Source: a virus. From it: 64,000 bases of DNA. Made by a program: the position numbers and the translations under genes. Shown one piece after another: positions 1,269 through 37,584 of the stretch (its first letter is position 1; the number at the start of each line of letters is the position of its first letter). A model generated the notes under the pieces. That model ran no database searches and was not told where the DNA came from. It was given only the letters and a program-made list of their open reading frames with translations. The stretch lies in the IMG/VR virus record IMGVR_UViG_3300021368_000005, positions 1 through 64,000 of that record. One strand, 5' to 3'.

Positions 1269-4200
1269 TACTTTAACCTTTTTATTTCTTCTTGTAACTT
1301 ATCTACTTTTTTATTCAGTTCTTTTATAGCTTCTATAAGTAAAGGAGTTAGTTTTTCGTATCGTACTCCATAGTAACCATTTACTGAATTCATTTTTGTT
1401 ATATGAGGTACAACCTTTTCTACATCTTGTGCTATTACTCCAATATCTTCTCCCTTAAATTGATGGATATCTTCATGTCCTTCTTTCCAATTAAAGAAAA
1501 CTCCTTTTATTTCATTTATTTTATCAAGTGGTTTGGAGATTTCAATAATATTTTCTTTTAATCGTTCATCTGATGTTGCAAAAGCAGTAATATTACCAGT
1601 TGCAGAAATAGAACCTGTAACTGATAATGCATCACCAGTTGTTGCGGTTGGTATTCTTACTAATTTAGTATCTGTTGTTACAACCTGTAATCCTCCTTTT
1701 GTAATCTCAGTTAAAGCATTATCACTTGAACCCGCCATTGTCAAGGTAGGTGTACTTGTAATTCGTGGAGCACCATAGTAAGCTCGTATTCTAGCACCAG
1801 TAACCGATGGTTCGGTATATGCATTAATATCTACATTAGTTATTTTTGTAATTACTCTGTAATATTTACTATCTTCTAAAGTTGCACTTAATGAAAATGA
1901 ACGAGAAGTACTTCCTAAATCTGCGGATGTACCTGAAGCTGTTTGAGTTAAAGTATATGACCATTCTTTTACATCAGACCAACCAGAAGAACCATTTGAA
2001 CTTTTTTGTAAAACTACTTTAATTTTAGCAGAAATTAAATGAATGAAAACTGAAGCCGCTACACCTATTATTTCTGATTCTAAATATTTGGTATTACCAC
2101 TATTAAGTACTGGTGCAGATACTGTTCCACTTATTGTAGCAGTTTTTCCATTATAACCACTACCACCAGTTTGAAATCTAATTGGGTTTGATGTAAATGT
2201 ACTCGATGTATCTGAGGTAACTCCACTCGTATCATCATATTCTGGAGTTCCTTGAGTAGAATTACTTCCATTAAACGTAGCTTCATTAGTATTTGCATTT
2301 GGAATAGTGCCACTTACAGTTGGAGTACTAACACTATCAACTTGAGTTAAATCATTTTTATTTTCAATATTAATCGCACCTGCTCCTACTTTTATATGAG
2401 CATTGTTTGAAGAATCACCTGTGTTAATTACAATACCAGAACTTGGAGATGTTAAGGCTGTACCTGAGAAGTTAAAACCTGCTATCTCACCATCAGTTGC
2501 ATCAACAGTACCTTGAATACTTAGAGTATCAGTACCCGCATTCCAATTTAATGAACCAGCTGTACCTGCTAATAAGAAGTTACCATCATCATCCATGTAG
2601 GTTTTCCAACCACCATCATAATAACCTAAGTTTGTATTTCCTAAGTATAAACCTGCCGATGAAGGGGTTGGTGATGATAAAACAAAATCTGCTGAAGATG
2701 CATCTGGTCCAAAGTTGAACTCTGAAGCACTTATCAATCCATCGGGTAATTGTTCACTACCACTAATTATCCCATCAGGTAGTTGTTCTGAACCACTTAT
2801 GATTCCATCTGGTAATTGTTCACTACCACTTATGATTCCATCGGGTAATTGACCAGAACCACTAATTATTCCATCGGGTAATTGTTCTGAACCACTAAGG
2901 ATTCCATCAGGTAATTGACCTGAACCACTTATTGTTCCAGCTGGTAATCCATCAGTTATATCACTTCCGGCTTCTAAGGTAATACTACCTACTATTGATA
3001 AATTAGAACCATTCCAACTTAATTTATCTCCAAGTGAAAATATATTAGATGAGCCAGATGCAAAATAGAATGGTGTATCACTATTATCGTAATTACCAGC
3101 ACCAACATAAATTCTTGAACCACTTCCATCTAATGTTATACCATTTTGACCTACTCTAAATGCGTTAGAAAAGTATCCTTGGTCACCACCAATATTTGGT
3201 GAGTAAATAATCCCTTCATCTATAAACGTATTTCCACTTCCATCTTGTAAAGCAGTTGTACCAGATATTACATCTGATAAATCGGTATTAACTTGTGCAT
3301 TTGATGCTGAAGTTTGTAATACCAATAAATCTGTTTCAGAAAGTGATGATGAAATAGATGAACTAACCGCATTTGCAGATTCAGAACCACTCAAGACCGC
3401 ATTAGCAGAAGATTCAGAACCACTAAGTACAGCATTTAATGCCGCCAATGAACTACTCTGAAGAGTATCATTTATTGCTCCTGGTGTATTTGAAAATTCT
3501 ATTGAACCTTGTATTGTTAATGTACTACCATCCCATAATAGTTGGTCATTTCCAAGTCCACTTTCTAGTGAAAGAGAAGCAGTACCAGAGTTTCCATTTA
3601 TACCTAAGAAAATACCATCTCCAACATCATACCCTTGTGTACCAGTTGATGCTCCCTGTCCTACTGAGATGTAAGGAGCAGAACCACTACCATATATTGT
3701 AATATTGGAAGCGGAACTTCCTCCACTATTATTCGTACCAACATTAATTGTATTTTGTACATATGATTCTTTGAATATTGCCAATTCCGCCGCAACAAAG
3801 TTTGAACCACTTCCCAATTCCTCCCAATATTCAGTTGATGATGATGGGTGTTGTAATCCATTACTTGTACCTGGTCCACTTGATGAAATAGCAAGATAAA
3901 ATAAATCATCATACAGTACAGAATCTTTTCTAGATAAAGAACCTGTTGTTACTATATAATCTCGTGTATTATCATAATCACCAGTGAATACTAAACCAGG
4001 ACCATTAGCACCTGCAAGACCAGGCTGTCCATCTGCTCCCTCTTGTACTGTATTGAAGTTTGCCTCTCTTCCGAATTCATATTCTCTTCCACTAAAGTCA
4101 GTATAAGAAACATTAACTATAAGGGATGATGATGCCGCTCCCATCGTACCAGGTAAACCACCATATTCATTTGTTGTTGGATTTACTTCGTTTGGTGTAA

Positions 4201-7200
4201 TACCAGAACCAGTTACGCCTGTAATTCTATAAGTGTTAGGAGTAGATGAATTATTAAATGTTATTTCATCTCCATCAATGTAAAGTTTGGTTGAACCACT
4301 TGTAAACTGATATGAAGAAGATGGAATTATTCCACTTGCAAACGCAGGTAACACTCCTCTTTCATTTGAAAGATATAAAACTATACCACCTAAAAAAGCA
4401 ATTGGGGTGATTGTTGTAGAATTATCAACTTGTAATCCAAACTCATCTGAGGAGGAGAATGAATATTCTACTGAACCACTTGTTAAATCTAAAGACGAAC
4501 CACTAACTGCAAAAGTTGCAACACCAGATGTAGAATCATCATTTACTAATATAAGTGGTGGTGCATTTCCAACTACCGAAGCTGAATTTGCTGATATGGC
4601 GATTGAATTTGAGGCTAAGTTTTTTCTTTTTACCTTAATAGTTGAAACTTGAGATAATGGGTCTACTGTACCATCATTTTGTTTGAAAGTTACTATACTT
4701 CTATCATTAGTAACAATCAAATCAGCAGCAGGTAATCCATCTTCTAATCTATAAATTGTTTCAAATTCTTCTTTATCTTCAACAGATGCCGTATAAACAA
4801 TTGAACTAACATTGAACGAAGAATCACTTCCACTAAAATTAGCAACCGATAATAACGCACTGTTGTTTGTTATATTTGTTAAACCACCAGGATAATCACC
4901 AGTATATGCAGATGGTTCTATATAATTACCATTTTCATCAAAAGCAGATGAGGCAAAATTAATAGAACCAGTAAGTGCTTGTGTTTTTGAAAAATTAAAT
5001 TTTATTTGTTGGAATGGTGGATTTGCAAGTGAACCAGTAAAGAATCTAAATGCAGGTGCATTACTTTCAAATTGAAATATCTTAACTAATTCAGTACTTA
5101 CCTTATTACCACCACTAAACTCTTTACTCTGTTCTATATTAACAGGTATAAAATTATTGTTTATATCATATAACTCAAATCTATAATCAAATGTTTCTAC
5201 CGGTAAGTTTCTTTCTTGTTCATCTAATGTCTTAAATAACTTAGGTGAGAAAGATTCATCTTGAGTTGGTTTTAATGATATTTTAGATATTTGCCAACCA
5301 TCTCCCCTAACATCAAATCCTAATTTACCTGAACCAGAATATGGCATTGTAAATAATTGACTAATCTCTCTTCTAGTTGCATATGATGAATCAGCAGTAA
5401 ATGTAGCAAGTTCTTCTCTAAATGGTAGTAGTGTTGTAGTAGAACCACTATAATATGCACCAGTTATAAAAGCAGTTAATGTTTTTGGAACAACTGTATC
5501 AGGTGCTTTTATAGATTGTGATATAAAAATAGGTGGTGTACTAAAAGAAGTTGTTCCTGTTCCATTTGTTGATGATGCCGTAAATATATTATCAAATTGT
5601 TTTACATATACATTTTCAATAGTACCATTGGTTACTTCAAACGTATAAGGTATCTGTAATCCATTAACAGCATCTGGTATTGTTAAATCAGTATTTGGAT
5701 TCAAATCATCTGTTATGAAAGCTCCATTTACACTTGAATCTACTACAAAAGGATAATCACCACTAGAATATAATCCACTACCAGCCTTAACAGGTACTTG
5801 AGATGAGAAAACAGTAGTTGAGGTTACTGAACCAGTAACTTCTGTACTTCCTGAGAATGGGAATATTTCTCTAGATTTTAGAGAACTAAAATCAGTTGAA
5901 CCAATTTGTGATATTGCAGTAATCTCATTAAGATTTGCATTAAGGGGTTCTATTGTTCTGTTCGTTCTATAATCAACATATATGAAGTGATTTCCTCCAA
6001 CATTAGAATCAAATATTGCTTGAGAACCAGTTGATAACATCCATAAAGGACTATAAGTAAAATCAGATGAATCCATATCATCCAAAATTATATTGGTACT
6101 ACCAGAATAAGATTCTATTACCGATTGAGATGTTGATGAATTATTATAATATAACAACGCATCTTTCTGAATATTTCTTAAAGCAAGTGCCGTTCTCAAA
6201 TTGGAACCTGATTGGAAATTTTCAATATGGAATTGTAATGAACCGGTTGATGTAGGTAGTTCACTAGAACCACTATCAGTAACTAAAACTAAATTAAAGT
6301 TACCTTGGGATGAAGAAACAGAATTAAAAGCGGTTATACTTGAGTTATATGTTGATAAAGCTCTTTGTGATGTTCCAGCAGATATATTTTCCTCCACATA
6401 TACAGAACCACTAAATGAGCCGGTACTCATCCAACCACTAAAGTGTATAAATTGGTCGTATATATAATTTGTATTATTAATATCAGTTGATGAAGATACT
6501 GATGATGCTACATAAATCTGGTCAGATTCTTCTACATATACATTTTCAATCTTATCATTATCGTTTCTAAATATATAAGGTATTTCTAATGGATTTGTAA
6601 AATTATCATCAGATGATGATGGTGAAGTAAACTCAGTTGTTAAAAAGTTTCTATCACTAAATTCTGTTGTACGAAATGGATATCCAGATTCTTGATATAA
6701 ATAATCTCCACCTTGTGGTGGTACTCTAGGAACAACTAAATCTGTTGAACCAGTAGAAATCCAATTACTACCACTTAAATCAAATAAATCATATAAATCA
6801 TATGAACGAGGTTGTGGTGCTAATTCTGTGAAATCAAGTTCACCAACAAACATTATAAACCCTTGATTAAAATCTAACTCTACAATATATCCTGTATTGG
6901 TATTACTTCCTATTGTAATAATTGCCTGTCCATTAACTAAACTTAAAACCCCACTTAATGTTCCATCTACTGCATTATGCCCAAATTCAATATCACCTGT
7001 TTCAAAATTAATAGAATGTATTTCGTAGGAACTACCATACAAAACATCACCATTAATAGAATCTAATCTTTTAACATTAATCAAATCAGCGTTCAAAGGT
7101 TCTATATTTCTAAGAGTTCTATAATCTATATGTAAATAATGATTTCCACTTCCACTATATGGTATTATTGCCTGAGAACCTGTTGATGTTGTATGCCAAG

Positions 7201-9215: not shown

Positions 9216-9377
9216 ATGAGAAAATATACAACAATACAGATAAAAAAAGAAACCCATGAACTATTACAAGGGTATTGTAAAGAACATGGGTATAAATTAA
9301 GTGGATTGGTTGAAAATCTAATTAAACAAAAAGTTGGTACACCTAAACCTGATAATGTATTAAGGGTTTCTAAATAA
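9216..9377 (+). CDS. Ribbon-helix-helix (Arc/CopG-like) DNA-binding protein
   Basis: A 53-residue frame from ATG 9216 to TAA 9375-9377, the only plausible plus-strand gene in the window. It starts MRKYTTIQIKKETHELLQ and continues through GYKLSGLVENLIKQK. That is a basic strand, a helix, a short Gly turn and a second helix, the layout of ribbon-helix-helix repressors that bind DNA as dimers. Its last 8 nt overlap the 3' end of the convergent methyltransferase gene, and it is divergent from the giant fibre. Short RHH repressors usually control their own divergent promoter, so repression of the fibre promoter is a reasonable inference. A chance frame is unlikely given the residue pattern. Confidence 0.75.
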   Translation: MRKYTTIQIKKETHELLQGYCKEHGYKLSGLVENLIKQKVGTPKPDNVLRVSK

Positions 9378-9999
9378 ATTGAAATAGTGCAGAGTATAGC
9401 TGATAATCTGTATGGTGGTCAATAAAATCTATCATCTTTAATCTTGGATTCATACTCAATATTAAGTCAGTAGAAATATAATCTCCACTTTCAAATAACA
9501 TCAAATATCCATTTGGAATTAAAACCTTATCTAAATTTTCAAGTAAGTTTTTATGTAATTTTAATTTATCATCTAATACTATTCTTGGAGTAGATGTTGT
9601 TATCTTTTTATTAAATTTAATAAATTCATCATTGGATGGTATGTGAGGTGGATTACAAACAATCATATCTACTTTATCTCCATTATAATCATCAACACCA
9701 TTACTTAAATAAAAAGTTACCTCATCTTCCCAATTATTATCCTTATTTGTTTTTTTAATAACTGATTCTAATGGTTTGTGATTATCTACTAATGAAAGGG
9801 TTTTTATATTATATTTTTGCTTTAGGTGATATCCCATAAAACCAGGACCACTACACATTTCCATAAGAGAGTTTACTTTCGGCCAATCATAATCTTGCAT
9901 CAATTCAATCCAAAACTTTCCACCTCCATCTTGATTCCCTTCAAAATAAATTGGATACTTTCCATGTGTTAATGATTTTTCTAAATGATAAACCTTCAT
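9370..9999 (-). CDS. Class I SAM-dependent methyltransferase, HemK/PrmC-like motif
   Basis: A 209-residue protein with the Rossmann SAM-binding loop MCSGPGFMGYH (residues 48-58), an acidic strand end (SLVDNHKP, ~69-76) and the catalytic-type motif NPPH at 116-119. NPPY/NPPH motifs occur in enzymes that methylate amide or amino nitrogens, including PrmC-type release factor glutamine methyltransferases, so a protein or nucleic-acid N-methyltransferase is likely. Substrate is unknown. The ATG at 9999 touches the stop of the upstream SbcD-SbcC fusion, so they are co-translated, which hints at a link with DNA metabolism. Confidence 0.75.
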   Translation of the reverse strand: MKVYHLEKSLTHGKYPIYFEGNQDGGGKFWIELMQDYDWPKVNSLMEMCSGPGFMGYHLKQKYNIKTLSLVDNHKPLESVIKKTNKDNNWEDEVTFYLSNGVDDYNGDKVDMIVCNPPHIPSNDEFIKFNKKITTSTPRIVLDDKLKLHKNLLENLDKVLIPNGYLMLFESGDYISTDLILSMNPRLKMIDFIDHHTDYQLYSALFQFI

Positions 10000-12900
10000 T
10001 AAAACCTAACTTGTGAAAATCCTTTTTCTTTTTTAATTTCAATAAGTCCATCTACTACATCTCTCATTGAATCGATGTGTGAGATTACCATTACAAAATC
10101 AAACTGAGTTTTAAGGTATGTAAACAACATAAATAAGGATTGTAGGTTCTCACTATCTAATGTACCGAAACCTTCATCTATCACAAGGAAATTAGGTCTT
10201 GGTAGGTTACATACATTGATTAGAGCAACTCTAATTGCTAAACCACTAATAAACCTTTCCATACCACTACACATTTCCAAACTCCATCTTTGGTCTCCAT
10301 ATACAAGATATGCATTAATATTCTTACCATCAATCTCTAACTGCATTCCAAACTCTACAATTTGTGCAAGGATGTTATTTACCTCACCCTCAATCATTGG
10401 TAGAGATTTTTCAATCAATTCATATGATACACCATCTTTCGAAAGTGCATTTAGATAAAAATCAAATAATTTAGATTGTTGTTCTAAATCCTTTACCTCT
10501 TGAATTCTATCTTCAATTGTTTCTTTTTGGTTCTGAAGAGCAGATATTTTACCATTTAGTTTAAGAACATCAGAGTTAACTCTTTTCAACTCATCTTTAA
10601 CAGATGATTGTTTTGTTCGTACTCCACCAATTTGTTCTCTGATTTCTTTATTCTTCTGAATTTGTTTCTCATTCTTATAATATTCATCAATAAGTTGTTC
10701 TTGTTGAGCAGTTTGTGTATCTAATCGAATTTCTTCAGTTTCGGTTGTTGATAACTTGTTTATAAGTTGGGATATTTCTCTATCTAATTTATCCTCTTTA
10801 TCTTTAGCATCTTTATATTTATCCCACTCTTCTTCATATGATTGTAAAGTTTCTATATCTACCTTAAGATTTAACCTATCTTCATTTTCTTTTTGTATCA
10901 ACCCTTGATACTCTTTTATCTCAGTTTCAACCTTTTCTTTTGTTTCTAAAATAGATTTAGAATTTTCCATACAAATATCACACTCTTCATTATACTTGTG
11001 AGAATCTAAGTGTTCTTTTCTTTCATATAAGGAATCTAACTTTACTTGTAATTTATCTATATTTGATTCTACATCTCTTAATTTATCCTTTGATTTTTTT
11101 AAGTTACCAATACCAACTTCTAAATCTTCTTCATCAAATTTATCCAAAATCTCATCTAATGTGATTTGTTGTTCTTCTCTAAAAGTGATTCTATCTTGTA
11201 AAGAACCCTTTGTGGTTTCTAGGTTCTCTTTTTTGATTTCGAGGTTTTTCAATCTTTTCTCTAACTCTTCGATTGAAACTCCACTATCAGCGTTTAACTT
11301 TACGATTTTCTCATTTAGAGATATAATCTGTTTATTGAGAATATCTTCTTCATCTACCAAAGCCTTTTGGGACATCTCCAAAAGTTTATATTCGTTCTTG
11401 TCGGTTTTAAGTTCTGTGTCGATTTGAGCTAATTTTGTCGTAAAATCATCACTCTTAAATTTTCTGATAAGTGTTGCATTATCCCTATTTTCATCTGCTG
11501 CCTTTTGATATAATTTATCAAAGATATCTACTCCAATAAATTGAGAGAGTATCTCCTTACGTTCCGATTGTGATTTATCAATGAATAAAGCGTTGTTACC
11601 TTGTAGAGAAAGAGCAGTTAAAACAAAGTCCTCAAACTTACCTAAGTACTTTTCAATTTCTTTGTTGGTATCTTTTCTTTGTTCACCATTAAGTGATTCA
11701 ACAACTCCAGCATCTTCTTTCCAAAAATCTACATCTACCTTTACAGAAGTTTTCTTTCTAACGTACTTAGCCCGTCTTTCAATAAAGTAATCTACCCCAT
11801 CTATCTCAAAGTTAAACTTACAATAAAAGTTTTCTTTTCTATTGTTTAATATGTTCTTAGATATATTAGTACGAGAAGTTTTATCATATATACAAAAAGA
11901 AAGAGCATCCCACATAGATGATTTACCACTTGCATTTGGTGCAAAGATACCCATGATACCTTGTGCTTTATCAAATCTGATTTGATTACCTTCACCATAC
12001 GAGAACATATTAGAGAACTCAAATGTTTTTGGTGTCCATAAGATGTTACCAACAGAATCATTATCTTTTATCTGTCCATTTAACTCTGTATTTATTTCTG
12101 ATATCTTATCTAGTTCATCTGATTCTAGTAGATATTGTCTTTCTAAGTAATCTCTAATCAGTTGGTTTTGGAAGGTTTCATCTTTTACATTACCAACAAT
12201 GTTTTTATTTACCTTTTGATTTGTTTTTAGTTGTCCGATTGTATCGGTTCTAGTTACAGTAACTTCAGCAACTTTGAATAACTTCTTTAGTTCAGTTATT
12301 TTTCTCTTCATATCTGAAGCTTCTGTTCTTGTAAACCTTAATCTTAATCTTGGATACTTTGGAAGTTTAGTACCAACTTCATCATACACCCATTGAGGTA
12401 TCTTACCATCAACTACATCGACTGTTAAGAATCCATAATCATTATGTATGTGATGCTCGGTAAAGGTTCGAGTGGGTATATCCCACAATAAGTAACCATG
12501 ATTTTCAAGTAGTTCACCATGATTCTGTTGAATCATTGAACCTGCATAGGCAACCCACTCATATCCTTCACCAAATGTTTGTCTTTTGTGAATATCACCC
12601 AACATGGCCATATCGTATCCATCAAACATATCTACTTGAAATGAGTTTGAAGAAACGGTATAGCCGATATCTGTTTGAGCTTTGTTTACTGGTCCATGAA
12701 ATAAAACGATTTTATTTTCTCCATCAACGGTATCTCCCTTAGGCCAATTTTCCTTGTCATCCAATATAGAATAGACAACGAAAGTAAGATTATGGATATT
12801 ATAGATACCAGTATCACGAAGATAATGAATTCTATCGTTGTTAAGATTTTCGATAATAGGCGTGAGTACATCTAGTCTGTGTGAGTTATTTAAGTTACAA

Positions 12901-13157
12901 TCGTGATTACCTGTGATTAACACAGTTTCTCTTAACTTCGCACACTCGGTGAGAAACCAACTAATTTCGTGTACGAGTTCTGGTGACATCTCTGTTTTAG
13001 CATGAGCAATATCACCTGCAATATAAATGAGGGAATCCTCAATTTTATCTTCTTTTACTTGTTTTAGGAATTTTTTGAATACCAATTTGTATTCTTTATG
13101 CCTTTGTAGATTTCTAATGTGTAAATCTGCAAGGTGGTAAACTTTATTTACTATCAT
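9999..13157 (-). CDS. Fused SbcD-SbcC (gp47-gp46) recombination nuclease
   Basis: A 1052-residue single chain. Residues 1-~330 are a Mre11/SbcD/gp47-type metallophosphoesterase: ADLH (10-13), GD (48-49), GNHD (83-86), FHGP and GDIHKRQ. Residues ~370-1052 are the Rad50/SbcC/gp46 ATPase: Walker A APNASGKSS near 405, a long coiled coil, a zinc hook Cys-Asp-Ile-Cys at ~726-729, a signature CSGMERF near 965 and Walker B FLVIDEGFG near 992. In T4 and in bacteria these are two proteins forming an M2R2 complex that processes DNA ends for recombination; here they are one polypeptide. No stop or frameshift is seen at the junction. Lies between primase and methyltransferase with overlapping ends. Confidence 0.93.
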   Translation of the reverse strand: MIVNKVYHLADLHIRNLQRHKEYKLVFKKFLKQVKEDKIEDSLIYIAGDIAHAKTEMSPELVHEISWFLTECAKLRETVLITGNHDCNLNNSHRLDVLTPIIENLNNDRIHYLRDTGIYNIHNLTFVVYSILDDKENWPKGDTVDGENKIVLFHGPVNKAQTDIGYTVSSNSFQVDMFDGYDMAMLGDIHKRQTFGEGYEWVAYAGSMIQQNHGELLENHGYLLWDIPTRTFTEHHIHNDYGFLTVDVVDGKIPQWVYDEVGTKLPKYPRLRLRFTRTEASDMKRKITELKKLFKVAEVTVTRTDTIGQLKTNQKVNKNIVGNVKDETFQNQLIRDYLERQYLLESDELDKISEINTELNGQIKDNDSVGNILWTPKTFEFSNMFSYGEGNQIRFDKAQGIMGIFAPNASGKSSMWDALSFCIYDKTSRTNISKNILNNRKENFYCKFNFEIDGVDYFIERRAKYVRKKTSVKVDVDFWKEDAGVVESLNGEQRKDTNKEIEKYLGKFEDFVLTALSLQGNNALFIDKSQSERKEILSQFIGVDIFDKLYQKAADENRDNATLIRKFKSDDFTTKLAQIDTELKTDKNEYKLLEMSQKALVDEEDILNKQIISLNEKIVKLNADSGVSIEELEKRLKNLEIKKENLETTKGSLQDRITFREEQQITLDEILDKFDEEDLEVGIGNLKKSKDKLRDVESNIDKLQVKLDSLYERKEHLDSHKYNEECDICMENSKSILETKEKVETEIKEYQGLIQKENEDRLNLKVDIETLQSYEEEWDKYKDAKDKEDKLDREISQLINKLSTTETEEIRLDTQTAQQEQLIDEYYKNEKQIQKNKEIREQIGGVRTKQSSVKDELKRVNSDVLKLNGKISALQNQKETIEDRIQEVKDLEQQSKLFDFYLNALSKDGVSYELIEKSLPMIEGEVNNILAQIVEFGMQLEIDGKNINAYLVYGDQRWSLEMCSGMERFISGLAIRVALINVCNLPRPNFLVIDEGFGTLDSENLQSLFMLFTYLKTQFDFVMVISHIDSMRDVVDGLIEIKKEKGFSQVRF

Positions 13158-14095
13158 AAACCTTTTAATTTTTGTGATATAATATCACCAAATCCCGTCT
13201 GTTCGGATTCCTTTAATTTACTATTAACTTCTGAAAACCCCATATCAGATGCATCTTTATCTGTGGGTTTTATATTTTTTGTATCGATACCTTGTTGTTG
13301 AAATTGTATTGTATATTTTAGTGCTTGGTCTTGAGCATCTTCATCTAATAAAATATTAATATCTTTAACCTCGTTACTATATATACTATCATTTAATTTT
13401 CTTGGAACAAACTTACCAAGTAGAGGAATAGCATTTCGTTTCACAGCCATTGCATCAAATACTCCCTCTACTAAGGTAATTGGTTCATCCCAATTTATTT
13501 GGTTTTCAAACATTATAACATTTTTAGAAACCGGTGGATTCTTATACTTAAACTTTTCCTCATCGAATACAGAACGTGCGATGAAGTAATTGAGTCTATT
13601 ATTAGAATCATAACTCGGAATAATAATACGATTGGCATAATGACCACCATCACAGTAACCAATATTATATTTGATAATATCTCCACGAGTGATACCTCTT
13701 CTTTCAGCATACTCCTTTACCTTTCTGAACAAAGGATTAATACCCTTTGGTTCTTTTAGAAGTGATTGAAACTCACTAGGTAACCTCAACTCTACCTTTT
13801 CATCTTCAGTATCCTTGTTGTAAACAACATAATCATCACCATATATTTCATATAACTTTCTCAATTTACGAGAATCTACATGAAGTCTCTTTAATAAACG
13901 ATTTATTCGTTTTCCTTTTGCATCACATACCCAACAGTGCCATTGTTGTGTTTGTATGTTTATCTGTAATTTCTTTTTATGGTGATGACAAAATGGACAA
14001 TAATGAGCTTGTTCATCATTTTTCATAGATGTACCAGGACCCAAAACGTCATCCAATATTGTTATAACAGATTGTTTTTCGTGATGTGAAAGCAT
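13154..14095 (-). CDS. DnaG-like DNA primase (zinc finger plus TOPRIM)
   Basis: A 313-residue protein. The N terminus holds a CHC2-type zinc ribbon with Cys at 33, 36, 54 and 57 (CPFCHHH and CWVC). A TOPRIM-type catalytic segment follows, with LVEGVFDAM (Glu near 208) and ILLDEDAQDQA (Asp pair near 248). It is shorter than bacterial DnaG and lacks a C-terminal helicase-interaction domain, which fits a phage primase of the gp61 type. The stop overlaps the start of the SbcD-SbcC gene by 4 nt (ATGA), so replication and recombination genes form one operon under the class 1 promoter at 14115-14147. Confidence 0.9.
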   Translation of the reverse strand: MLSHHEKQSVITILDDVLGPGTSMKNDEQAHYCPFCHHHKKKLQINIQTQQWHCWVCDAKGKRINRLLKRLHVDSRKLRKLYEIYGDDYVVYNKDTEDEKVELRLPSEFQSLLKEPKGINPLFRKVKEYAERRGITRGDIIKYNIGYCDGGHYANRIIIPSYDSNNRLNYFIARSVFDEEKFKYKNPPVSKNVIMFENQINWDEPITLVEGVFDAMAVKRNAIPLLGKFVPRKLNDSIYSNEVKDINILLDEDAQDQALKYTIQFQQQGIDTKNIKPTDKDASDMGFSEVNSKLKESEQTGFGDIISQKLKGL

Positions 14096-14114: not shown

Positions 14115-14147
14115 GTAAATATACGAAAAATATTTTAATTTTCCAAG
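14115..14147 (-). promoter_or_regulatory. Class 1 (host-like) promoter for the primase operon
   Basis: On the minus strand a CTTGG (-33) is followed by 19 nt and TATATTTAC (-7), with TTTTCG directly before the -7 box, as in the seven related promoters. The -7 box lies 20 nt before the primase ATG. The -33 box overlaps the last codons of the GIY-YIG gene upstream. The downstream dyad is weak here (TTTACATTGTTTT). Confidence 0.8.
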
Positions 14148-14629
14148 TCTTTTCTAAAAAATTTTCCTAATAGATTATCGTTTAATGCCATATCATCACC
14201 CAAAACATCGTGTGAAAACTGTTCTTGTAACTCATAGTAGGTTAAAGCCTTCTTATTTTTACAAAATTTAAGGATTTTTAACTCCAATCTATCATTTATA
14301 TCATCTCTCCTATCTTCTAAAAGAGCTGTTTCATTTTCATGAAACCATAATTGTACAGTAGGATTAGAAGAACGATACTTTCTCCAATCAGATTCTTTTT
14401 GAACCATTTCGTACTTTTTCATTCGTTTATCTTCAAGTTTAGCAATTTCTCGTTTACCAAATTTTCTTTTTCTAACAGAAACTACTTGTTTCTTTCCGAT
14501 ATAGTATTGGCCTGTTTCGCCATTTGTTATTTTGTAGATAAAACCAAAAGTTCCTTCTGGCATGTCTGATAATTCTGTTATAATTTGTCCTTTATATGTC
14601 CAACTCATAGTTAAAAATTTTGAAATCAT
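14135..14629 (-). CDS. GIY-YIG nuclease-like protein
   Basis: A 164-residue protein with the GIY-YIG hallmark spread over residues 29-45 (GFIYKITN then YYIGKK), followed by a basic segment with several Arg/Lys and a helical C terminus. Phages carry such proteins as Seg-like free-standing homing endonucleases or repair nucleases. The first motif is degenerate (GFIY), and which residues are catalytic cannot be settled by eye. The 38-nt overlap with the upstream sulfotransferase gene makes the internal ATG at 14608 (MSWTYKG) a plausible real start. Confidence 0.75.
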   Translation of the reverse strand: MISKFLTMSWTYKGQIITELSDMPEGTFGFIYKITNGETGQYYIGKKQVVSVRKRKFGKREIAKLEDKRMKKYEMVQKESDWRKYRSSNPTVQLWFHENETALLEDRRDDINDRLELKILKFCKNKKALTYYELQEQFSHDVLGDDMALNDNLLGKFFRKDLEN

Positions 14630-15164
14630 TTGCGTACCTCTCTCGTACCCAAGTTAGAACATCCTTATCAATATATAGATGTTTATAAAAATTGTATTGA
14701 TTTAGGTTAGGATGTTTATCATAAATTGGATTACGATTTAGATGTGGTATATTTTCATTTGATTCTACTTTCTCTAAAATAAAATTCACATCGTTTATGA
14801 AATTTTCATACCTTCCAATAAAACTTACTTTTTTATCTTCGGTACTTCCATTTCGTATAAAATAGCTTTGGGGAAAAAACAAATAATCATTTTTATCGAT
14901 AGTTTCTATGAATCTATGTACTGACATGAATCCATCTTTTCTACATTGATGATTATATGCAGATGCAAATCGAGTATAAGGATTTCTTACAAAACACATG
15001 ATGTAGTAATCCTTTATGTTCTCAAATTTACCAATATGATTATGTGATTTAGAAACCCATTCAGTACCTACTACGTTTTGTAGTACTGATGTAATAGATG
15101 TTCCACCAGTCTTAGGTATATGAATAAATCCCCATTTTTTAGAACGATTTATCAGTAAACTCAA
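14592..15164 (-). CDS. Sulfotransferase family protein
   Basis: A 190-residue protein with the two PAPS-binding signatures of sulfotransferases: the 5'-phosphosulfate loop IPKTGGTS (16-23) and the 3'-phosphate site CFVRNPYTRFASAY (57-70). Such enzymes move sulfate from PAPS to hydroxyl or amino groups of sugars, lipids or proteins. It is short and probably soluble, with no membrane segment. A phage copy could modify host surface polysaccharide or a virion component, but no substrate can be read. It sits between structural and replication genes and differs from the second sulfotransferase at 59673-60203. Confidence 0.8.
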   Translation of the reverse strand: MSLLINRSKKWGFIHIPKTGGTSITSVLQNVVGTEWVSKSHNHIGKFENIKDYYIMCFVRNPYTRFASAYNHQCRKDGFMSVHRFIETIDKNDYLFFPQSYFIRNGSTEDKKVSFIGRYENFINDVNFILEKVESNENIPHLNRNPIYDKHPNLNQYNFYKHLYIDKDVLTWVRERYANDFKIFNYELDI

Positions 15165-35877: not shown

Positions 35878-37584
35878 TTATAGTATCTTTTTTTTGATAA
35901 TGTAGTTGTGAATCACAAGAGTATCCATTTCACAATTTAAGAAGGTTTCTATTGCCGATTTGGGGTCTAATACCATTGTCTGGTCTTTTAGATTAAATGA
36001 AGTATTAATTACAATAGGATATCCATTATCAGTATTCAACTGTGTAAGTAACTTATATAATCGATTATGTTGTTTGTGTTGTAGTGATTGAATTCTAGCA
36101 GAACCATCTATGTGGGTTATAGCAGGAAGTTTATCTCTATACTCTTCTTTAACTTTAACAACTTGATTCATATATGGAACATCTTTAATATAATCAAAAT
36201 ATCTAGATTGTTCTTCTGATTTTACTATTGGAGCGAAAGGTCTAAACCCTTCTCTCTTTTTAATAATACTGTTCAGTTTATCTTTCATCTGAGGGTCACA
36301 TGGATTGGCAAGAATAGAACGATTGCCTAATGCTCTTGCACCAAATTCCATTTTACCTTCAAACCACCCCACTACATTTCCATTTGTAATTTCTTTAGAA
36401 ATGATAGGTATGATTTCAGAATGTGTTTTCTTCTCGAACCAAACATCAACATTCATTTCTTCTAATACATCTTCAACATCCGAGTTTAAGTAATGAGGTC
36501 CTAGGTATGGAGTTTTGTTGTCAGGTCTATGCTCTCCATTTCTAACATGATATAGATGTAACGCGGCTCCAATTGCAGAACCTGCATCAGATGGAGCTGG
36601 TGGAATCCAAATATTTCTAAAGTTTGATTTTTCTAACACTTTTCCATTAGCAGTTCCATTATAGGCACACCCACCACTTAAACATAAGTTATGAGATGAA
36701 CGAAGTGCATATAATCTATCCACCAATCTAAAGAATAAAAATTCATATTCTTGTTGTAAAGTTGCTGCCAAATCTTTATGTGGTTGATTTAGGTTATCTT
36801 CGGGTAATCTGTTAGGTATCCCAAATAATTTTCCTAGTTTTTCATTAAACATATGAGTATCCGACCAATCATATGTAAAATAATCCATATTAAATTCAAA
36901 CCCACCATCATCAGTAAGAGTATATAGTTTTTTGAATTTATGAGTAAACTTTTTTGGATTACCATAAGGAGCCAATCCCATAACTTTATATTCACCCTCG
37001 TTTGGTTTGAATCCTAAGAATGCAGTTATTGCTGAGTACAACATACCAAGTGAATGTGGGAATTTTATATGTTGTACTTTTGTGATTTTATTTGCCTCAC
37101 CATAATACATACAAGTAGTTTCCCACTCACCCACTCCATCTACTGTTAGTATGGATGCTTTATCAAAAGGTGATGTATAGAATGCATAAGCAGCATGAGA
37201 AAGATGGTGGTCTCCATAAAATATTTCAATATCTTTATGAGTTATATCTACAATTTGATTTTCAAATCTAGTGTACTTTAGTTTATTTCTTTTAACTATA
37301 TTAGTACGATTAAAAAATTGAGATATGGGCCCTCTCTTAACTGATTGTGTTATTCTATCTATTTTGGATTCAGGATTATCATAAAAAGCAACACCTTCAA
37401 TATTAATTCCCTTAATATTAAATTCTTTATACAACCAATTGATTGTATTAATAGGAAAAGATGAATCGTGTTTTACACCTGTGAATCGTTCTTCCTCACA
37501 AGCACCTAAAACCTTTCCATCTTTAATTAAAGCTGCGGCACTATCATGATACCCACATGATACTCCTAAAATATAACCTTGCAT
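35878..37584 (-). CDS. Carbamoyltransferase, NodU/CmcH family
   Basis: 568 residues, full length for the family. The N-terminal Kae1/TsaD-like part has GVSCGYHDSAAALI, CEEERFTGVKHDSSFP, the metal site GDHHLSHAAYAFY (~122-134) and VDGVGEWETT. The C-terminal part has LSGGCAYNGTANGK, FGARALGNRSILA and REGFRPFAPIV. The enzymes transfer a carbamoyl group from carbamoyl phosphate, via carbamoyl-AMP, to a hydroxyl on a sugar, antibiotic or nodulation factor. A phage copy could modify a nucleotide, a glycan or a virion part. It follows the late sigma gene by 5 nt. Confidence 0.93.
   Translation of the reverse strand: MQGYILGVSCGYHDSAAALIKDGKVLGACEEERFTGVKHDSSFPINTINWLYKEFNIKGINIEGVAFYDNPESKIDRITQSVKRGPISQFFNRTNIVKRNKLKYTRFENQIVDITHKDIEIFYGDHHLSHAAYAFYTSPFDKASILTVDGVGEWETTCMYYGEANKITKVQHIKFPHSLGMLYSAITAFLGFKPNEGEYKVMGLAPYGNPKKFTHKFKKLYTLTDDGGFEFNMDYFTYDWSDTHMFNEKLGKLFGIPNRLPEDNLNQPHKDLAATLQQEYEFLFFRLVDRLYALRSSHNLCLSGGCAYNGTANGKVLEKSNFRNIWIPPAPSDAGSAIGAALHLYHVRNGEHRPDNKTPYLGPHYLNSDVEDVLEEMNVDVWFEKKTHSEIIPIISKEITNGNVVGWFEGKMEFGARALGNRSILANPCDPQMKDKLNSIIKKREGFRPFAPIVKSEEQSRYFDYIKDVPYMNQVVKVKEEYRDKLPAITHIDGSARIQSLQHKQHNRLYKLLTQLNTDNGYPIVINTSFNLKDQTMVLDPKSAIETFLNCEMDTLVIHNYIIKKKIL

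Follow-up and report, generated by a model that had tools for sequence, protein, structure and literature searches.

The fused gene and its neighbours

The window, i.e. the whole stretch of 64,000 nucleotides analysed (positions 1 to 64,000 of IMG/VR record IMGVR_UViG_3300021368_000005), contains a fused gene in a minus-strand run of genes. The fused gene and its immediate neighbours are as follows:

9370–9999, minus strand: small methyltransferase (PF05175, E 1.9e-10); its start overlaps the stop of the fused gene (TAATG)
9999–13157, minus strand: fused Mre11/SbcD/gp47–Rad50/SbcC/gp46 gene, 1052 aa (ORF; Pfam, PHROG and NCBIfam matches; relatives)
13154–14095, minus strand: DNA primase-like protein (phrog_47, E 4.8e-44); its stop overlaps the start of the fused gene (ATGA)
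14135–14629, minus strand: SegE-like GIY-YIG endonuclease (PF19835, E 1.5e-20), a conserved upstream neighbour

The fused ORF runs from 13157 to 9999 and comprises 1052 codons from ATG to TAA. Its product begins with an Mre11/SbcD/gp47 nuclease and continues, without a change of frame, as a Rad50/SbcC/gp46 ATPase; both are complete. Pfam matches above the cut-off were obtained for Metallophos (PF00149, residues 5–191) and for the AAA_23/Rad50 head (PF13476, residues 382–618). SbcC_Walker_B was matched at residues 961–1012, and PHROG 77 (SbcC-like) spanned residues 281–1050. The nuclease motifs are DLH (11–13), GD (48–49), GNHD (83–86) and GDIHKR (187–192). The ATPase motifs are Walker A (APNASGKS, 406–413), the signature (CSGMERF, 963–969) and Walker B (D994/E995), and the hook CDIC lies at residues 726–729. 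The ORF, the domain matches and the relatives bore out the first-pass annotation, which had placed a gp47-like nuclease and a gp46-like ATPase in one 1052-residue chain. All the motifs that it listed were present, the nuclease set first and the ATPase set after, and were nearly invariant in 76 aligned sequences. Not all of them are canonical, since GDIH carries an Asp at a position that is His in most Mre11/SbcD proteins (GHxH).

Translational coupling is likely because of the overlaps with the primase (ATGA) and the methyltransferase (TAATG). A primase relative was found upstream of the fused gene in 100 of 113 loci and the SegE-like GIY-YIG protein in 78, while the methyltransferase was a neighbour in only 4. 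The GIY-YIG gene is adjoined by a sulfotransferase-like gene (14592–15164; Sulfotransfer_2, E 1.3e-15), a homologue of which lies upstream in 53 of the 113 loci. A promoter scan around the fused gene gave fewer matches than chance. The window also encodes baseplate wedge genes, thymidylate synthase, a DNA helicase and PhoH, and a Nol-like carbamoyltransferase (35878–37584; phrog_1601, E 3.8e-116) is located among the structural genes. On this gene content, the window therefore belongs to a large tailed phage. Related contigs are up to 288 kb long.

Parts of the fused protein

The fused protein was modelled as a monomer with AlphaFold using 34 family sequences (mean pLDDT 82, pTM 0.47), and the model was compared with solved structures using VIA-align. 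Conservation was read from an alignment of 76 full-length sequences, and pN/pS was calculated for the window gene against 31 relatives. The following parts were delineated, all on the minus strand:

12438–13157: Mre11-type phosphoesterase domain, residues 1–240 (D11, H13, D49, H52, N84, H85, H154, D188, H190; PF00149, invariant motif residues, SbcD structure match)
12249–12437: Mre11 capping domain, residues 241–303 (inside the SbcD match 1–303; mixed beta/alpha in the model)
12072–12179: helix-loop-helix (Rad50-binding domain of Mre11), residues 327–362 (model helices; aligns with split gp47 C-termini)
12039–12071: fusion joint, residues 363–373 (flanked by the last helix of gp47 and strand 1 of Rad50; pN/pS 0.48)
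11478–12038: Rad50 ATPase N-lobe, residues 374–560 (Walker A 406–413, Q-loop Q519; structure alignment)
10458–11477: antiparallel coiled coil with the hook at its apex, residues 561–900 (long model helices; pN/pS 0.28–0.37)
10971–10982: zinc-hook CDIC, residues 726–729 (C726 in 75/76 and C729 in 76/76 aligned sequences)
10002–10457: Rad50 ATPase C-lobe, residues 901–1052 (signature 963–969, Walker B D994 and E995, D-loop, H-switch H1027; SbcC_Walker_B, conservation)

Residues 1–303 of the model matched the SbcD fold, including the capping domain (S. aureus 7dog, Z 25.3; E. coli 4m0v, Z 24.4), and residues 374–1052 matched E. coli SbcC and the archaeal P. furiosus Rad50 (Z 28–29). Long helices were modelled at 544–905, interrupted at 719–733, where the CDIC hook lies. 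In the nuclease half, D11, H13, D49, N84, H85, H154 and H190 are conserved; in the ATPase half, this holds for Walker A, signature, Walker B, D-loop and H-switch. The folded domains and the hook had pN/pS values of 0.07–0.17, with the C-lobe (0.07) being the most conserved region. The coil evolves faster than the folded domains, and the joint yielded the highest value of the protein, being its least conserved stretch. Nuclease, capping domain, helix-loop-helix, short joint and Rad50 head, coil and hook are all complete and under purifying selection.

The first-pass annotation had asked whether a linker at about residues 330–370 replaces the Mre11 C-terminal helices that bind the coiled coil. 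This idea was rejected. The model has two helices at 327–341 and 346–362, followed by a short break, and residues 327–362 fall on the C-termini of the free-standing gp47 proteins of T4, S-PRM1, KMSP1, SIOphi and SPO1. According to the model and the alignment, the fused protein retains the helix-loop-helix, which is predicted to bind the coil. In the structure alignment, residue 1 of Rad50 itself falls at 373–374. The fusion is thus almost seamless, because gp47 keeps its helix-loop-helix and only about 11 residues (363–373), the sole new part, join it to Rad50.

Proposed function and the Asp of the GDIH motif

The protein is very probably a single-chain SbcCD/gp46–gp47 enzyme of the Mimivirus R555 type, which serves an aquatic tailed phage as a homodimer resecting and tethering DNA ends. 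Sequence, fold, conservation and context are established; activity, dimerisation and cis docking are proposed by analogy with the family. Two chains would dimerise via their ATP-bound Rad50 heads and nuclease domains, with the helix-loop-helix of each chain docked on the root of its own coiled coil. ATP hydrolysis would open and close the way for DNA ends to the Mn-dependent site of the nuclease, and the zinc hook would tether two DNA ends. The resected or hairpin-opened products would be passed to a phage RecA/UvsX-type recombinase, which would then drive recombination-dependent replication and repair. The products of T4 gp46/gp47 feed recombination-dependent replication. A RecA-family recombinase was detected in eight of the nine records searched; none was found in the phage's own 73.6-kb record, which is a fragment. 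The first-pass annotation also proposed that the fusion fixes a 1:1 stoichiometry. The ratio is indeed enforced, but it is not changed: normal Mre11–Rad50 complexes are M2R2, i.e. already 1:1, so the fusion enforces rather than alters it.

The GDIH motif has Asp in place of the first His of GHxH in 76/76 aligned sequences, with the second His kept. The protein may differ in nuclease activity or in its preferred metal, because this Asp replaces the metal-ligand His H206 of P. furiosus Mre11. It is conceivable, though unlikely, that the changed metal site together with the covalent coupling of nuclease and ATPase results in a gating different from that of split SbcCD. We also considered GDxxH as a peculiarity shared with R555. 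This was dropped, since the His at that position is the normal Mre11 residue (P. furiosus H52).

The presence of the Asp throughout the clade of the window protein could also point to a weakened active site. The protein would then be a structural DNA tether, or an SMC-like nuclease of defence or counter-defence, instead of an end-processing enzyme. The model does resemble further ATPases of the SMC type, among them chains of Lamassu and JetABC. We consider such a role improbable, however, as the remaining nuclease residues are invariant and the same GH-to-GD change occurs in a clearly split phage subunit (PG07 reads GDLH). In addition, the fused gene lies beside the primase, and it gives the sole Rad50-like match in most of the large genomes searched, as one would expect for a core replication–recombination gene. 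One AAA_23 (Rad50-like) match per record was obtained in 10 of 11 records, namely in the fragmentary 73.6-kb record itself and in 9 of 10 others, up to 484 kb. The exception, a 735-kb phage, had extra SMC-like matches, apart from which no second, split gp46 copy was seen in the 11 records. Separate Metallophos proteins, of a kind not assigned, were present in some of the searched records.

The weak conservation of the joint would also suit a chain that is cleaved there after synthesis into ordinary, separate gp47 and gp46. We regard this as highly improbable, because the joint shows no evident conserved cleavage motif, and its shortness and fairly steady length across the family are those expected of a tether. 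A single-chain end-processing enzyme thus remains our preferred reading. With 1052 residues and a short coil, this compact natural SbcCD would lend itself to structural and single-molecule studies of the Mre11–Rad50 cycle, since nuclease and ATPase cannot dissociate.

Relatives across the joint

A first IMG/VR scan returned 79 loci with relatives of 58–90% identity; 31 more loci, at about 26–42%, came from two additional scans and a scan of genomes. The contigs are partly non-independent, as some are near copies. All 79 first-scan relatives were open in one frame through residues 327–373. Full length in one frame was reached by 71 of them, 7 were cut by contig ends, and the remaining one (L068) carried a frameshift in the coil. 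The later loci were likewise open through the joint (31/31), and all were single ORFs except for one (L147, see below). Among cultured phages, fused annotated CDSs were found in Microcystis phage Mel-JY01 (1066 aa), Sphingomonas phage PAU (gp288, 1301 aa), Tenacibaculum phage PTm1 (1318 aa) and Chryseobacterium phage MA9V-1 (1326 aa). Hence, the other single-chain SbcD–SbcC phage proteins that the first-pass annotation suggested searching for do exist.

A single error that removed a stop or shifted the frame at residues 330–370 could have joined gp47 and gp46, since the split genes are neighbours in other phages, but the chance of such a sequencing or assembly artefact is negligible, given the relatives from many metagenomes in one frame across the joint, the cultured-phage CDSs of 1066–1326 aa, and the purifying selection on the helix-loop-helix and the domains.

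Searches of plasmids gave no close relatives; only weak partial matches were obtained, mostly to SMC-type ATPases. Prokaryote genomes yielded one relative, in a viral-looking contig of an archaeal (Nitrosopelagicus) MAG (L117, CALBOT010000005.1). It is a fused protein of 1043 aa with 41% identity and an adjoining phage-type primase. The contig probably stems from a phage and was placed in the MAG by binning.

Some members depart from the common form. In the sub-clade of L118 and L083, the P-loop deviates from the usual form, and L118 reads FENQEGKT around Walker A. In a 484-kb uncultured phage (L082, LR756508.1), the fused gene is present as three tightly packed ORFs (2950–7175). The nuclease domain is interrupted just behind GDIHKRQ; the first ORF is followed by an inserted ORF and then by the ORF with the rest. 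The inserted ORF (305 aa) has CxxC pairs resembling a zinc ribbon, together with a signature of TnsA/HNH-type endonucleases. A group I intron was rejected, as the interrupted copy gave no Rfam match to this or any intron family. The space between the two parts is filled by the inserted ORF. By analogy, the arrangement looks like that of nrdA in phage Aeh1, a genes-in-pieces case; homing endonucleases occur in T4-like phages and have been reviewed.

The L147 copy (3313–6547) consists of two overlapping ORFs, with the boundary at the same nuclease-domain loop and without an insert. The second ORF begins with an ATG inside the end of the first, preceded by GAGGAA. This break may be a real split, a frameshift or a sequencing error, the last being possible because L147 is a single short contig. 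In the tree, the two copies are placed apart from each other within the fused clade. We suggest, with considerable doubt, that the chain was broken again in two clade members, one of them through an inserted endonuclease gene, and that both breaks fell in the same loop of the nuclease domain and not at the old gp47/gp46 boundary.

Origin of the fusion

A tree was calculated from the nuclease and ATPase of 14 intact fused proteins, 2 interrupted ones and 7 split phage pairs. Fused and split forms separated with a UFBoot value of 99 (IQ-TREE) and a FastTree support of 0.995, and the Mel-JY01, PAU, PTm1 and MA9V-1 proteins grouped with the window protein. Judging from this tree, one fusion event would suffice within the phage sample. 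In the split phages, the order is nuclease then ATPase, and the two genes are directly adjacent in KMSP1 and PG07, which makes simple in-frame joining plausible. Most likely, the fusion arose once in the lineage sampled, by joining of adjacent operon genes, nuclease then ATPase. Over a wider sample, cellular and viral fusions were reported not to be monophyletic (Yoshida et al. 2011, PMC3175470).

Comparison with known systems

Mimivirus R555 was described as a fusion of an N-terminal Mre11 and a C-terminal Rad50 (Yoshida, Claverie and Ogata, Virol J 2011, PMC3175470). Twelve further Mre11/Rad50 fusions were reported from bacteria, plasmids, eukaryotes and the Bacillus phage 0305phi8-36 (PMC3175470). 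The first-pass annotation stated that nuclease and ATPase are separate in T4 and in bacteria; this holds for the two genes of T4, but fused forms, bacterial ones included, have been known since 2011 (PMC3175470). The single-chain form was thus already described, and the gene found here adds a phage case, which does not overturn current understanding. Our search, with limited reach into subscription journals, found no later paper on phage Mre11/Rad50 fusions, and no biochemistry of this protein or any R555-type fusion was found in the literature.

The gene is an R555-type fusion, with both domains in one ORF, the nuclease first and, in the model, a short joint. It shares with R555 the domain order, the single chain and the helix-loop-helix, which R555-type fusions retain together with a linker of 9–12 residues, about the length of the joint here (PMC3175470). 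Asp at the position of P. furiosus Mre11 H206 is also common to both (PMC3175470). The window protein differs from R555 in its shorter coiled coil (1052 vs. 1351 aa in total). It also belongs to a tailed phage with baseplate genes, from a lineage with a RecA-type recombinase, which Mimivirus does not have. The best BFVD match was a full-length Tupanvirus protein (26% identity, E 6e-74). The top structure matches included full-length giant-virus proteins of Tupanvirus, Harvfovirus, Yasminevirus and Catovirus; the top nine were about 970–1420 aa long, and all seven named ones came from large eukaryotic DNA viruses.

The 2011 authors argued that the R555 homologues so abundant in viral metagenomes from aquatic habitats come from phages; phage primases lie on the same scaffolds, often as direct neighbours (PMC3175470). 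A primase is likewise the neighbour here, and the deep and diverse set of phage members backs that proposal.

The proteins of PAU (gp288), PTm1, MA9V-1 and Mel-JY01 are fused in the same way, each within a single annotated CDS. The first, second and third of these (1301–1326 aa) belong to the other sub-clade, and PHROG 35725, a profile of 1376 positions, covers the nuclease as well as the ATPase domain of a fused protein from there. Mel-JY01 is 37.5% identical to the window protein over the full length. T4 gp47/gp46 and SPO1 gp21.3/gp21.9 comprise the same two enzyme parts, and the gp47 C-terminus aligns with residues 327–362, but in these phages the parts are encoded by two genes with small ORFs between them. 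Both halves of the fused protein superpose on E. coli SbcD and SbcC. The E. coli enzyme has a much longer SbcC coiled coil and consists of two subunits, whereas the phage protein is one chain.
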